Below are positions 4,739-10,950 of a stretch of DNA of 12,237 nucleotides, in pieces. The translations under genes and the position numbers were made by a program. Position 1 is the first letter of the stretch. Each line of letters starts with the position of its first letter. The notes beneath the pieces were generated by a model. The model searched no databases, was not told the origin of the DNA, and worked only from the letters and a program-made list of their open reading frames with translations. The stretch is from the NCBI GenBank assembly GCA_003526525.1, contig DPVV01000215.1:5451-17687 (forward strand). The letters are read 5' to 3'. The DNA comes from Lachnoclostridium phytofermentans (GTDB lineage Bacteria > Bacillota > Clostridia > Lachnospirales > Lachnospiraceae).

Positions 4739-4780
4739 CAAGAAAAAACACGCTTCGCGAACTTTTTCTTGTCATGAATA
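4739..4780 (+). repeat. Dispersed palindromic repeat, copy 1
   Basis: CAAGAAAAA (4739-4747) and TTTTTCTTG (4763-4771) form a 9-bp stem around a 15-nt loop containing CACGCTTCGCGA. TCATGAATA follows. Nearly the same 42-bp sequence occurs inverted at 10711-10752, and partial copies lie at 11788-11806 and 12210-12237. It sits between two unrelated genes, like a REP-type or small non-autonomous element. Confidence 0.75.
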
Positions 4781-6828: not shown

Positions 6829-8754
6829 TTAAACCAAGCCTGACCACTCAATCAGCAAATCATTTAGAATTTGCTCTTCCTTATTGATGGTTTCTTGAAG
6901 TTCACTTAGCTTTTGATAATCCGTAGCTATTTCAGGATCACTAAACTTAAGTTTTAGCTTATTTATTTTTTCTTCTAAATCGGAGATCTCATTTTCTATC
7001 TGAACTAATCTCCGTTCCCGCTTTGCTTTTTCCTTCCCGTTAAGATAAGATATCTGCTCGCTTGTCATTGTATTTTGTAAGCAAATTGTACTCTCTGATA
7101 ATTTATCCTTATTCTCATCTCTAAGAGCACCTGTGTTACCTAACAAGTTCTTTTCTTTTTTCTCAAGATATTCTTCATAACCACATGGATAATAATTGAC
7201 CTCCCCGTTCTCAAAAATGAGTAAATTATCTGCAACACTACGCACGAAATAACGATCATGCGACACAAAAAGAAGAGTTCCCTGATAACTTTTCAACATG
7301 GATTCTAACATTTCTTTTCCTATCATATCTAAATGATTGGTAGGTTCATCAAGAATCATCAGATTCGCTTGCCGTTTCATTAACTTTGCTAAGGATAGTC
7401 GAACCTTTTCGCCTCCGGATAGCTGACTTAATGGTTGAAATACATCATCACCAGTAAATAAGAAATTTCCTAATATGGTTCTTACTTCTGTTTGCGTTAG
7501 CTTTGGATAAGTGTCCCAAAACTCCTCAATCACATTTTTACTCTCATCCAAGTTAAGAAGCTCCTGATCAAAATAAACCCAGTCCACATCCCTGCCAAAC
7601 TTTAACGTTCCTCCAAGAGCATCTATCTGACCAACAACGGACTTAAATAAAGTTGACTTTCCTTTCCCGTTCTCACCAATGACTGCAAGTTTTTGCCCCT
7701 TCTTTAATTCTAGAGAAACACTTGCTAACACTTCTTCATAGCCTATCTTTAACTCTTTCACTGTTAGAACCTCTTTTCCAGATTCTATATTCGGCTGAAG
7801 CTTTGCATGCATAGCTTTTGTATCAAAGCGCAGTGGTTTTGGAATCTTAACCATATGCTCAATCTGCATTTGCTTAGAACGTGTCATAGCTACCTTAGTC
7901 GGCGTATTCTTCCACTTCTCTATAAAAATTGTTAGTCTCTCGATTTCTTTTTGCTGGGCTTCGTAATCTTTGCATTGTTTCTCATAATCGAGACGTTTAC
8001 GTTTCAAAAATTCAGTATAGTTACCAGGGTAACGTTTCATCTTTTTGTGCTCAATTTCATAAGTTACATCCACAATTCTGTCTAAGAACATACGATCATG
8101 AGAAACTATTACCACTGCATGATTATACTTTTTTAGGTAACCTTCTAACCACTCAATCATTGGCATATCTAAATGATTGGTTGGCTCATCTAGTAACATA
8201 ATGTCTGGCTTACTAAGTAGTAATTTAACAAATGCAATTCTGGTTTTTTGTCCACCTGAAAAAGTTAGTATTTGACGGTCTAAATCAGACAAATCAAATC
8301 CAAACTTCGTAAAAATCTGCTCTATCTCATATTGATAGGAATAGCCACCAAGTCTTTCAAATTTATCAGAGACCTTTGCATATTGTTCTAGAATTTTCTC
8401 GCTTGCTTCCACTTCCATAAGACTTGTTAATTCATTCATTTTATCTTTTAAAGTGAAAATTTCCTCATATACCTTTAGTAATTCTTCTCTTACGGTTATT
8501 GTTTCTTTTTCGAAACTAATCTGTTCCAAATATCCAATACTAGGTGCCCCATCTGCTTGTATGAAAAACTCTTCATCACTATCTAAATTATCTACCTCAA
8601 GTTTTCCGGCGATTGCTTTAAGTAATGTTGTCTTCCCACAACCATTTCTACCTACAATCGCTATCTTTTCTGTATTTTTAATTTCCATAGAAACACCGTC
8701 TAACAATCTGTTTCCTGGATACCCGATAATTGCATTCTTCATTTGATAAACCAT
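6829..8754 (-). CDS. ABC-F family ATPase, YdiF-like (ribosome-associated; possible antibiotic protection)
   Basis: These 641 residues contain two ABC ATPase domains and no membrane segments. Domain 1 has Walker A GRNGCGKT (35-42), signature FSGGQK (165-170), Walker B with E190 and H219. A charged linker of about 80 residues (about 243-325), the ABC-F interdomain (PtIM) region, follows. Domain 2 has Walker A GENGKGKS (360-367), signature LSGGEK (445-450), Walker B with E470 and H499. Residues about 570-636 form a C-terminal coiled coil. Length and layout match B. subtilis YdiF. ABC-F proteins act in the ribosomal E site; some give resistance to 50S antibiotics and others are housekeeping. AGGAG 9 nt before the ATG supports the start. 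The long leader with a small ORF and attenuator-like terminator upstream favours antibiotic-responsive control, but substrate specificity cannot be read from sequence. Confidence 0.93.
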   Translation of the reverse strand: MVYQMKNAIIGYPGNRLLDGVSMEIKNTEKIAIVGRNGCGKTTLLKAIAGKLEVDNLDSDEEFFIQADGAPSIGYLEQISFEKETITVREELLKVYEEIFTLKDKMNELTSLMEVEASEKILEQYAKVSDKFERLGGYSYQYEIEQIFTKFGFDLSDLDRQILTFSGGQKTRIAFVKLLLSKPDIMLLDEPTNHLDMPMIEWLEGYLKKYNHAVVIVSHDRMFLDRIVDVTYEIEHKKMKRYPGNYTEFLKRKRLDYEKQCKDYEAQQKEIERLTIFIEKWKNTPTKVAMTRSKQMQIEHMVKIPKPLRFDTKAMHAKLQPNIESGKEVLTVKELKIGYEEVLASVSLELKKGQKLAVIGENGKGKSTLFKSVVGQIDALGGTLKFGRDVDWVYFDQELLNLDESKNVIEEFWDTYPKLTQTEVRTILGNFLFTGDDVFQPLSQLSGGEKVRLSLAKLMKRQANLMILDEPTNHLDMIGKEMLESMLKSYQGTLLFVSHDRYFVRSVADNLLIFENGEVNYYPCGYEEYLEKKEKNLLGNTGALRDENKDKLSESTICLQNTMTSEQISYLNGKEKAKRERRLVQIENEISDLEEKINKLKLKFSDPEIATDYQKLSELQETINKEEQILNDLLIEWSGLV

Positions 8755-8780
8755 ATCTTTATTCTCCTATTTCTCAATAA

Positions 8781-8862
8781 ATCGAGTAGGAGGAAATTTC
8801 CCTAACTGAGAAATTTCCGACCTCTCACACCACCGTGCGTACCGTTCGGTACACGGCGGTTC
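8781..8862 (-). ncRNA. Catalytic domains V and VI of the group IIC intron
   Basis: Domain V pairs CACGGCGGT (8852-8860) with ACCACCGTG (8829-8837), with an upper TACC/GGTA stem, a GAAC loop and a 2-nt bulge. The lower strand contains CGC, as in the O. iheyensis triad. Domain VI pairs 8792-8800 with 8810-8818 around a 9-nt loop. The A at 8787, seven nt from the 3' end, is the likely branch point. Confidence 0.88.
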
Positions 8863-8869
8863 AATCAAC

Positions 8870-10153
8870 TTAACAAGTAGCACACCTTTCGGTGTAGTAA
8901 TCTATCATTGAAACTAGGCCAAAGTCTTTCAGCCTGTTGGGGCTGATTGCCCTTTGAATATCTGTCATGGAACATACACGAGCTATACATGCTCCATTAT
9001 AGGCTGTTCTATATGAAGCCCATCTTGGTATTCCCAGTTTCATTAAGTTCTTCGCTCTGTTCTGTGGAGTTTTCCAATGTTTCCAAATACACATACGCAA
9101 TCTATAACGCATGTTACTGTCCAGTTTCTTGCACAATCCTTTCATACTTCCGATTTTGAAATAATTAATCCAACCTCGGGTTAGCTGATTCAGTTTCTGA
9201 ATCTTGTATGCATTGTCTACTCCCCAGCTCCGACAAGTTAATTCTTTCATTCTTGCTTTGAACTTTTCCACTGACTTCGCATGTGGTTTTGCTTTGTACT
9301 GTTTTGCAAATGAATCATAGTAAAATCCGAATCCCAGATACTTTATGCCCTTTGGTTTATCCACTTTGCTCTTGCTGACATTGACTTTTAATCCAAGCTT
9401 TTCCTCAATGAATTTTGAGATGCTCTTCATTACTCTGTTAGCTGCCAGTTCACTTCCGACCATAATAATACAGTCGTCTGCATATCTGACAAAATCCAGT
9501 CCTCTTGCTTCCATTTCCTTATCCAGTTCATTCAACATGATGTTTGATAGGAGCGGTGAGATATTTCCACCTTGAGGTGTTCCTATTATAGAATCCTCAT
9601 ATTCATCATCTATCATGACTCCGCTAACTAAGAACTTTCGTACAATAGAGATAACATCTCCATCTTTGATTGTTCTTCCGACTATCGTCATTAACTTATC
9701 ATGGTTTACTGTGTCAAAGAACTTTTCGAGGTCAATGTCCACTATCCAGTTGTACCCATCATTCATCATTTCTAATGCTGTAAGTACTGCTTGCTGTGCA
9801 CATCGGTTTGGTCTGAATCCGTAGCTGCGGTCATGGAACTGTTCTTCGAAAATAGGAGTAAGTACCTGGCCTACAGCTTGTTGTACAAATCTATCTGTAA
9901 CTGTTGGTACTCCAAGTTTTCTGATTCCACCATCTGGCTTTGGTATCTCCACACGCCTTACTGGTTGCGGTTTATATTTACGTGTCCGCAACTGTTCCTT
10001 AATTATTTCGCCGTTCTTCGAAAGGTATTCGCCTAGTTCTGTGTATTTCATTCCATCCACGCCCTCTGCTCCTTTATTTCGTACGACTTGCAAATATGCC
10101 GTATTGAGGTTATCTTTACTTAATATCTGCTCCATTAGACTACTTGTGTCCAT
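8870..10153 (-). CDS. ltrA: Group II intron-encoded reverse transcriptase/maturase, class C, no endonuclease domain
   Basis: The 427-residue protein binds its own intron RNA, helps it splice and copies it into DNA during retrohoming. Reverse transcriptase motifs are in order: VEIPKPDGGIRKLGVPTVTD (68-87), DIDLEKFFDTVNH with catalytic Asp (139/141), GTPQGGNISPLLSN (191-204) and the active-site YADD (224-227). Domain X (maturase) covers about 310-375 (GWINYF, RLRMCIWKHWK). The protein ends soon after, without an HNH endonuclease domain, as expected for class C. A GTG 12 codons upstream (10189) is in frame. The ATG at 10153 has AAAGGA 8 nt before it and gives the usual MDTSSLMEQIL start, so I chose it. 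The stop lies 7 nt from domain V. All catalytic residues are intact, so the intron may be active. Confidence 0.95.
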   Translation of the reverse strand: MDTSSLMEQILSKDNLNTAYLQVVRNKGAEGVDGMKYTELGEYLSKNGEIIKEQLRTRKYKPQPVRRVEIPKPDGGIRKLGVPTVTDRFVQQAVGQVLTPIFEEQFHDRSYGFRPNRCAQQAVLTALEMMNDGYNWIVDIDLEKFFDTVNHDKLMTIVGRTIKDGDVISIVRKFLVSGVMIDDEYEDSIIGTPQGGNISPLLSNIMLNELDKEMEARGLDFVRYADDCIIMVGSELAANRVMKSISKFIEEKLGLKVNVSKSKVDKPKGIKYLGFGFYYDSFAKQYKAKPHAKSVEKFKARMKELTCRSWGVDNAYKIQKLNQLTRGWINYFKIGSMKGLCKKLDSNMRYRLRMCIWKHWKTPQNRAKNLMKLGIPRWASYRTAYNGACIARVCSMTDIQRAISPNRLKDFGLVSMIDYYTERCATC

Positions 10154-10630
10154 GCGTTGTTTCCTTTCTGTCCCGTTTACCTCTGCCACCTTTGACGTTA
10201 TCGACAGGTGTTGCTTTGGCTACAAGCCGGAACCTACTTCAACTGATTGATTGTTCACCCCTTCACTCCATTTCCATTACAGAAACTTCTTCGCTACTAT
10301 GGGTTCTGCTGACTTCTCACAGTTCGTTGTTACTCGGCTAATAAAGCCGCTGTGAGACCTCCCCGATTAAGGTGCGAGCTCTTTCCCCTCATCTATCCGT
10401 CACATTTACTCGTACTTCCAGCAACTTTTGGACTTCATCTCTTCTAGCAGACTTATCCGTATTTCCGAGCCTTATATGTGATTCCTGTCCGTCGGACCAA
10501 GGGTTTGCCTACAGCTTCCTTCAGATTCCACCTCACGGTGGACACCCTTGCTGTTCAGCTATGTGTTTCCTCGTTGCCTAGGCACACTCGGGACTTGCAC
10601 CCGCTAGAGCCCGCCCATGGCGGGCAAACT

Positions 10631-10660
10631 AAAAAAACCTTTTCCGTGTTTGGAAAAGGT
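10631..10660 (-). terminator. Terminator/attenuator hairpin in the ABC-F leader; group IIC target site
   Basis: ACCTTTTCC (10637-10645) pairs perfectly with GGAAAAGGT (10652-10660) around a 6-nt loop. On the minus strand seven Ts and an A follow, and the intron begins at the next base. It lies about 260 nt after a promoter with no gene of normal size between, so it reads as a leader attenuator for ABC-F. Confidence 0.85.
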
Positions 10661-10710
10661 CAAATAAACATATAAATACATGCAGAAATAAAGTATATGA
10701 TTTTAAGTTT

Positions 10711-10752: not shown

Positions 10753-10822
10753 TTTATCATATACGAACTTGAAGTTATCAAAAAGCAATGTAATTTATCT
10801 GTCTACGATTTTCCACAACAAC

Positions 10823-10845
10823 TAACCATGTGTAAAGCATGGTTA
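10823..10845 (-). promoter_or_regulatory. Leader hairpin downstream of the five-codon ORF
   Basis: TAACCATG (10823-10830) and CATGGTTA (10838-10845) form a perfect 8-bp stem with a 7-nt loop. It lies 27 nt after the leader ORF stop. Outer ACAACT/AGTTGT segments could extend it. No T-tract follows. Confidence 0.6.
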
Positions 10846-10871
10846 TAAACAAAAATATTCAGTTGTATTAA

Positions 10872-10889
10872 TCACAGACAACGCTTCAT
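10872..10889 (-). CDS. Candidate leader peptide MKRCL (five codons)
   Basis: On the minus strand ATG-AAG-CGT-TGT-CTG-TGA is preceded by GAGG (10897-10900) 7 nt upstream, and begins about 26 nt after the predicted transcription start. UUGUCU of this ORF could pair with AGACAG downstream (about 10798-10803), so a ribosome stalled here could change the fold of the leader. Short upstream ORFs of this kind are known from ABC-F and erm attenuators. Translation and antibiotic stalling here are inferred. Confidence 0.5.
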   Translation of the reverse strand: MKRCL

Positions 10890-10921: not shown

Positions 10922-10950
10922 ATGGTAACATAATTTTACTGCAATGTCAA
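10922..10950 (-). promoter_or_regulatory. Promoter of the ABC-F leader
   Basis: On the minus strand a perfect TTGACA (10945-10950), a 17-bp spacer and TACCAT (10922-10927), with an extended -10 TG one base upstream, form the best sigma-A-like promoter in the window. No other gene starts between it and ABC-F apart from the leader ORF and the intron protein. Confidence 0.75.

Follow-up and report, generated by a model that had tools for sequence, protein, structure and literature searches.

The described system nearest to the intron reported here is presumably that of the E. rectale group IIC intron and its reverse transcriptase, MarathonRT. Like that intron, found behind terminators, the present one has a reverse transcriptase of the same family and a target composed of a hairpin and a T tract. 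Insertion of IIC introns at intrinsic terminators is described in the accessible text of two reports (PMC4424553, PMC8919778), and the latter, in the same text, presents such introns as hardly transcribed because of their position behind terminators; a conditional site would differ in this respect. A second group of related systems comprises the attenuators controlled by upstream open reading frames (uORFs) of the ABC-F resistance genes cplR, vmlR and msrD, as given in the available portions of PMC10201436 and PMC10314930. In the first of these portions, attenuation through ribosome stalling on the uORF is established for other ABC-F genes.

In the 12,237-nucleotide stretch of Lachnoclostridium phytofermentans DNA analysed here (the window), the minus strand carries, in order, a GyrI-like ORF, a 70-aa ORF, a leader, a terminator, a IIC intron with its reverse transcriptase (RT) and an ABC-F gene (Table 1). 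Whereas the usual IIC sites follow the ends of same-strand ORFs, the target in the window appears to be a conditional terminator within a 5' leader, with a promoter on its 5' side and the regulated gene directly 3'. The leader shares a short uORF, predicted alternative hairpins and an intrinsic terminator with the cplR, vmlR and msrD attenuators, as far as the accessible text presents these; it differs from them in sequence and in its five-codon uORFs (MKRCL/MMLCI/MILCI), and it would also gate a retroelement. The favoured reading, with a probability of about 0.72, is that a IIC retro-intron, recognising hairpin and T tract as such introns normally do, inserted at the conditional terminator of an ABC-F attenuator under uORF control. 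Comparison among congeners establishes two things at the level of sequence: the insertion occupies a site whose orthologue in one congener is empty, and the leader, with its promoter, uORF, predicted alternative pairing and terminator, is conserved.

Table 1. Features of the leader, intron and ABC-F gene, numbered by position in the window
Feature	Position	Strand	Basis or remark
Promoter TTGACA-17-TACCAT, TG before the second hexamer	10922..10950	-	Promoter scan, conservation
uORF ATGAAGCGTTGTCTGTGA (MKRCL)	10872..10889	-	Conserved five-codon uORF
Anti-anti-terminator fold	10799..10881	-	Stem C 10881-10872/10808-10799; stem A ACAAC/GUUGU; stem B ACCAUG/CAUGGU
Predicted anti-terminator strand UUGUGGAAAA	10809..10818	-	Complementary to terminator 5' arm
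Intrinsic terminator GACCUUUUCC-AAACAC-GGAAAAGGUU and T tract 10637-10631	10631..10661	-	Scan, conservation
IBS1 UUUUUA, just 5' of the intron; EBS1 UAGAAG			Four Watson-Crick and two G-U pairs
Group IIC intron, 1849 nt	8781..10629	-	Rfam, boundary motifs of relatives, IBS1-EBS1
Intron-encoded reverse transcriptase/maturase, 424 aa from ATG	8870..10144	-	TIGR04416, RVT_1, GIIM, PDB match
3' exon, 26 nt, with AGGAG ribosome-binding site inside	8755..8780	-	Before ATG 8754
ABC-F ribosomal-protection-like protein, 641 aa	6829..8754	-	NF000355, OptrA model

Three Rfam group II families match the intron on the minus strand, all above the gathering score: RF02001 at 10542-10371 (141.6 bits, E 5e-30), RF01998 at 10336-10258 (46.8 bits) and RF00029 at 8861-8781 (45.3 bits). 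These represent pieces of domains I-IV and then domains V/VI, in order; none of the three models is IIC-specific, and the subclass is assigned from the RT, from the target and by resemblance to known IIC sequences. The boundaries derive from a sample of 81 loci, namely the best 80 of 357 confirmed RT relatives with flanks, plus the window. A 5' end reading GTTTGC(G/C)CGCCATGGGC or similar is present at 64/81 loci, including one wrong call (L069); the other 17 are cut by a contig end (12) or fall outside the search pattern (5). The 3' end CTCCTAC(T/C)CGAT is present at 73/81, the remaining eight being cut (5) or outside the pattern (3). By these motifs the first base of the intron is 10629, separated from the T tract (T10637-T10631) by the single base A10630, and its last is 8781, which leaves 26 nt before the ABC-F ATG at 8754; the RT and ABC-F ORFs are both open on the minus strand. 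In the preliminary description the intron began one base past a seven-T tract, ended 26 nt short of the ABC-F start and read in the same direction, and it was assigned to class C. Both boundaries agree with those found here, and the class is upheld by the RT family, the hairpin and T-tract target and the short IBS1-EBS1 pairing.

Pairing between IBS1 and EBS1 was compared across 60 introns, a set that includes the window and leaves out L069 and three loci with <20 nt of 5' exon. All six positions pair in 37 of these introns and five or six in 54. For 26 distinct EBS1 loops, the mean score is 5.58 with their own targets and 3.96 with swapped targets. The window scores 6, two of its pairs being G-U, and its pairing is normal for the intron family.

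The RT exceeds the cut-off of TIGR04416 (421 bits, cut-off 300), and Pfam matches at E 0.01 or better consist of RVT_1 and GIIM, nothing else. Its best PDB match is 7uim (791.7 bits), which we take to be the maturase of the E. rectale IIC intron, 'MarathonRT'; the GsI-IIC RT 6ar1 matches with 358.3 bits over residues 2-417 of 424. Together, the TIGR04416, Pfam and PDB matches identify a class C RT/maturase that has no endonuclease domain. The ORF is open, and YADD was located in it by reading. The element is a complete-looking group IIC intron and, as judged from its sequence, a candidate for splicing and mobility.

One alternative is that the intron is a dead passenger, which neither splices nor moves any longer and whose sole effect is to lengthen the ABC-F leader by about 1.85 kb. 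The host genome, 87% complete, contains a single full-length copy; two of the EBS1-IBS1 pairs are G-U; and a decayed insertion behind an FMN riboswitch (L141, below) shows that such insertions do decay. The intact features of the element point the other way: its RT is open, with RVT_1 and GIIM, the Rfam domains I-IV pieces and V/VI match are present with an intact 3' end, and pairing at five or six of six positions is usual (54/60 introns). A dead passenger is a serious possibility, if a somewhat unlikely one. Separately, another group II intron, divergent from the first (66-89% alike), is present in pieces in the host genome, at G000:C330:1419-3185, and reaches the contig end.

The ABC-F protein scores above the cut-off of the general model NF000355 (442.5 bits, cut-off 380). 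Its nearest model is OptrA, but its score of 610.9 bits falls short of that model's cut-off of 1450. The gene is a probable ribosome-protection gene. The GyrI-like ORF (PF06445) and the 70-aa ORF occupy 11758-10980 (minus), 5' of the leader. The 70-aa ORF has no Pfam match; by eye, it resembles part of a longer GNAT-like ORF in the congener G001.

The ABC-F gene is present in four of the five genomes of the genus, the host genome included (E <=1e-150; identities 100, 89, 73 and 68%), and was not found in G004, which is 78% complete. In G001, with an ABC-F protein 89% identical, the leader is shared through GGTTTTTTTA and is followed by 26 nt and the ATG, with no intron. The empty site contains TTTTTTTA as in the window, and 19/26 of the nucleotides leading to the ATG are identical to those of the window. 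The flanks of the two sites align, at 87% over 396 nt on the upstream side and at 78% over 334 nt within the leader, and the sites are therefore orthologous. G002 and G003 also lack the intron at this site, and both have a longer stretch between terminator and ABC-F. An intron-free allele of the same leader, which the preliminary description had named as something to seek in related genomes, thus exists in G001, 26 nt before the ATG. The empty site suggests past mobility of the intron.

The leader itself is conserved, with promoter, uORF, paired stems and terminator kept in 4/4 congeneric genomes in which ABC-F was found. In all four leaders TTGACA-17-TA lies 46-47 nt 5' of AAGnGAGG, and all four contain the motif CATGGTTA-n-TTGTTGTG(G/A)AAAA. 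The uORFs, of five codons each, encode MKRCL in the window and in L006, MMLCI in L007 and MILCI in L008. Stem C is formed by the uORF and the sequence 3' of the CATGGTTA-n-TTGTTGTG motif, with standard pairs at 10, 9, 9 and 9 of 10 positions; the count for L008 has the 3' arm shifted by one column relative to the MAFFT alignment, and in unshifted columns L008 retains 17/22 pairs of the whole fold. Compensating changes occur within the stem (UGUGA/UCGUA vs UAUAA/UUAUA and UUUGA/UCAAA). The fold of the window leader beats all 200 shuffles (z -4.35). A scan of the window for terminators finds four, against 3.0 expected in shuffles; the predicted terminator is convincing through its conservation in congeners, not from a simple scan alone.

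No Rfam family matches the leader at E 1 or better. Beyond the four congeners, the leader was not seen by eye in the 600 nt 5' of each of 18 other family loci of the ABC-F group. A leader model (R1) matches strongly, under strict filters, only in G000 and G001 of 397 family genomes, and a search within the genus returns the same four genomes. Three weak genus matches (E 0.31-0.84) were set aside, as was one in G100 (E 0.016) that appears, by eye, to lie within coding sequence. Comparison with plasmids gives weak matches only, in 7 records at E 0.9 that cover 20% of the query. The leader thus seems to be restricted to the genus, and its conservation rests on four congeners. Among the 18 other ABC-F loci, L099 has a look-alike uORF start, GAGGTATTCCGATG, with no terminator visible, and was not counted; this segment (L099:1330-1500) is perhaps a translational version of the leader.

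The sites used by relatives provide the context for this target. Extra sites were located through the intron 5' end, which is matched exactly 87 times across 55 of the 397 genomes; 60 of the 87 were taken. The survey, in which the window is counted, covers 117 sites whose 5' flank is 300 nt or longer, and 111 of these are distinct. When ORFs of at least 60 codons are considered, a same-strand ORF ends <=200 nt upstream at 94/111 sites and <=120 nt upstream at 85; for ORFs of at least 100 codons the numbers are 75/111 and 69, all as raw counts with no random-position or random-terminator baseline. The last 48 nt of the 5' exon fold at -8 kcal/mol or better at 108/111 sites. The statement of the preliminary description that IIC introns usually target gene ends agrees with both ORF thresholds. 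Among the 17 sites outside the 94 are the window, L141 and L025.

Given these counts, the terminator in the window could simply close an upstream transcription unit, one now represented by decayed ORFs, with the intron at a gene end like 94/111 family sites and ABC-F served by its own promoter; the 70-aa ORF does end 350 nt upstream of the intron. Such an arrangement is highly improbable, given that the stretch from the 70-aa ORF to the terminator contains a promoter, a uORF and paired stems, all conserved 4/4, and that in G001 only 26 nt separate the T tract from the ATG, so that no second promoter fits past the terminator. The conserved leader parts and the empty G001 site favour instead a regulatory attenuator as the target, which is how the preliminary description had read it.

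Conditional terminators are represented once more in the sample. At Rfam gathering scores, a search of 107 distinct loci, some sharing one site, finds one cis-regulatory family directly 5' of an intron 5' end, the FMN riboswitch at L141 (G385). There a terminator hairpin, identified by reading, comes after the riboswitch (305-418); next are TTTTTTA and the 5' end of an intron, which starts at 501. All of this intron except a short 5' relic is gone, and ribD starts at 653 (TIGR00326 340 bits, cut-off 156; locus span 305-1825). A congener, L206 (G402), has a like riboswitch, hairpin and T tract and is intron-free. As in the window, the intron 5' end at L141 directly follows the T tract of a conditional terminator; unlike the window, L141 holds a short relic only, and its terminator is ligand-controlled, not ribosome-controlled. 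On these annotations, at least two conditional terminators in the sample have received a IIC intron, in one case a full-length and in the other a decayed element. In a literature search that took in few subscription journals, no report came up of a IIC intron lying in an attenuator or in the terminator of a riboswitch. Apart from the FMN riboswitch, the Rfam search yielded a single cis-regulatory match, TwoAYGGAY in L069, which is >3 kb off and on the opposite strand. At L025:3400-5500 (Anaerostipes sp. 992a), a promoter-like TTGACA and a short leader with a hairpin precede a IIC intron and an argD-like gene; this may be a third leader insertion and was not counted. At L039 and L067 an ORF begins shortly 3' of the intron, with no sign of a leader switch.

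How the leader might switch was modelled by folding a transcript that ends before the 3' arm of the terminator, with the uORF and the next 11 nt either covered or free. With the uORF free, the expected anti-terminator pairs number 0.7, 0.2, 0.0 and 4.1 (window, L006, L007 and L008); with it covered, 9.5, 9.2, 3.7 and 8.6. In the free state the uORF stem forms, mixed in L008 with the anti-terminator (6.4 vs 4.1 pairs). Shuffles of the leader middle reach the observed pairing of UUGUGGAAAA with the 10-nt arm in 1, 0, 8 and 0 of 200 cases, in the same order, and in 9, 6, 44 and 14 of 200 when any upstream segment is allowed to pair with the arm. The anti-terminator is thus predicted to capture the terminator 5' arm when the uORF is covered, strongly in three leaders and weakly in L007. 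In the full leader at equilibrium, the terminator is predicted to win in both uORF states, in part only for L008 with the uORF covered (6.7 terminator vs 2.9 anti-terminator pairs). The switch must therefore be co-transcriptional and kinetic.

Under the attenuator reading, the proposed mechanism likely involves: formation of stem C and then of the terminator when no ribosome is stalled, so that RNA polymerase would stop before the intron; stalling of a ribosome on the five-codon uORF, probably under a ribosome-targeting drug, which would block stem C; and pairing of GUGGAAAA with the terminator 5' arm once stem C is blocked, whereupon polymerase would read through intron, RT and ABC-F. Intron RNA and RT would then be co-induced with ABC-F. 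Drug induction of leader read-through would follow by analogy with other ABC-F genes, whose attenuation through stalling on a uORF is established in the available portion of PMC10201436. We infer likewise a rise of intron RNA, RT and mobility with ribosome-targeting drugs.

In the intron-free allele, only 26 nt with the ribosome site lie between terminator and ABC-F, and read-through should therefore be the sole route to ABC-F RNA. The intron occupies this gap and should inherit the same dependence unless it brings its own promoter. Because it lies after the whole T tract, it leaves the switch intact, and ABC-F retains its own ribosome-binding site, which is part of the 3' exon; the insertion should therefore be close to neutral for the host. 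By landing at a conditional terminator, a IIC element would obtain a regulated promoter for free, and expression of the retro-intron would be tied to a stress signal shared with the ABC-F gene. The site makes intron expression, splicing and mobility on induction directly testable, and it bears on how one terminator hairpin serves both as RNA-polymerase stop and as intron exon motif.

A promoter inside the intron would change this picture, since RT and ABC-F could be transcribed at a constant level, with ABC-F uncoupled from the attenuator. Outward-oriented internal promoters are reported in IIC-attC introns, by a title cited in the accessible text of PMC4424553, and one promoter-like match (10 of 12) lies inside the intron, at 9492-9465. 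That match overlaps the YADD codons, by reading, and promoter-like matches in the region are at chance level (18 found vs 17.7 expected). IIC introns behind terminators are, moreover, rarely transcribed according to the available text of PMC8919778. Constant transcription from within the intron is distinctly unlikely.

Splicing would restore the original leader length. The preliminary description had also made it necessary for a short, normal ABC-F leader, which is not borne out: the Shine-Dalgarno AGGAG lies within the 3' exon, and the unspliced transcript therefore carries the ribosome-binding site too. In folding predictions, the mean unpaired probability of this site is 0.81 for the exon alone and 0.16, 0.39 and 0.27 with 40, 90 and 130 nt of intron, against 0.50 on average with shuffled intron ends. 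Folding of four other loci gave no consistent masking of the ribosome site. Folding thus hints only weakly at masking of the ABC-F ribosome site by the unspliced junction. A bolder proposal would hold that IIC introns settle time and again in conditional terminators, of ABC-F attenuators and riboswitches alike, and so gain inducible transcription; that here the retroelement is made and moves under ribosome-targeting drugs; and that in unspliced RNA the ABC-F ribosome-binding site is paired with CUCCUACUCGAU, the conserved end of the intron on its 3' side, making splicing a second switch. In this full form the proposal is doubtful, and we consider it unlikely.

The window leader also contains a small dispersed repeat, GCACGCTTCGCGAGCTTCTCCTTGTC, located between anti-terminator and terminator at 10743-10718 (minus), with a second copy at 4748-4773 (plus). 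It was not seen in the G001 leader. At <=3 mismatches, the repeat has 26 matches in the host genome, against 0 for a reversed control.
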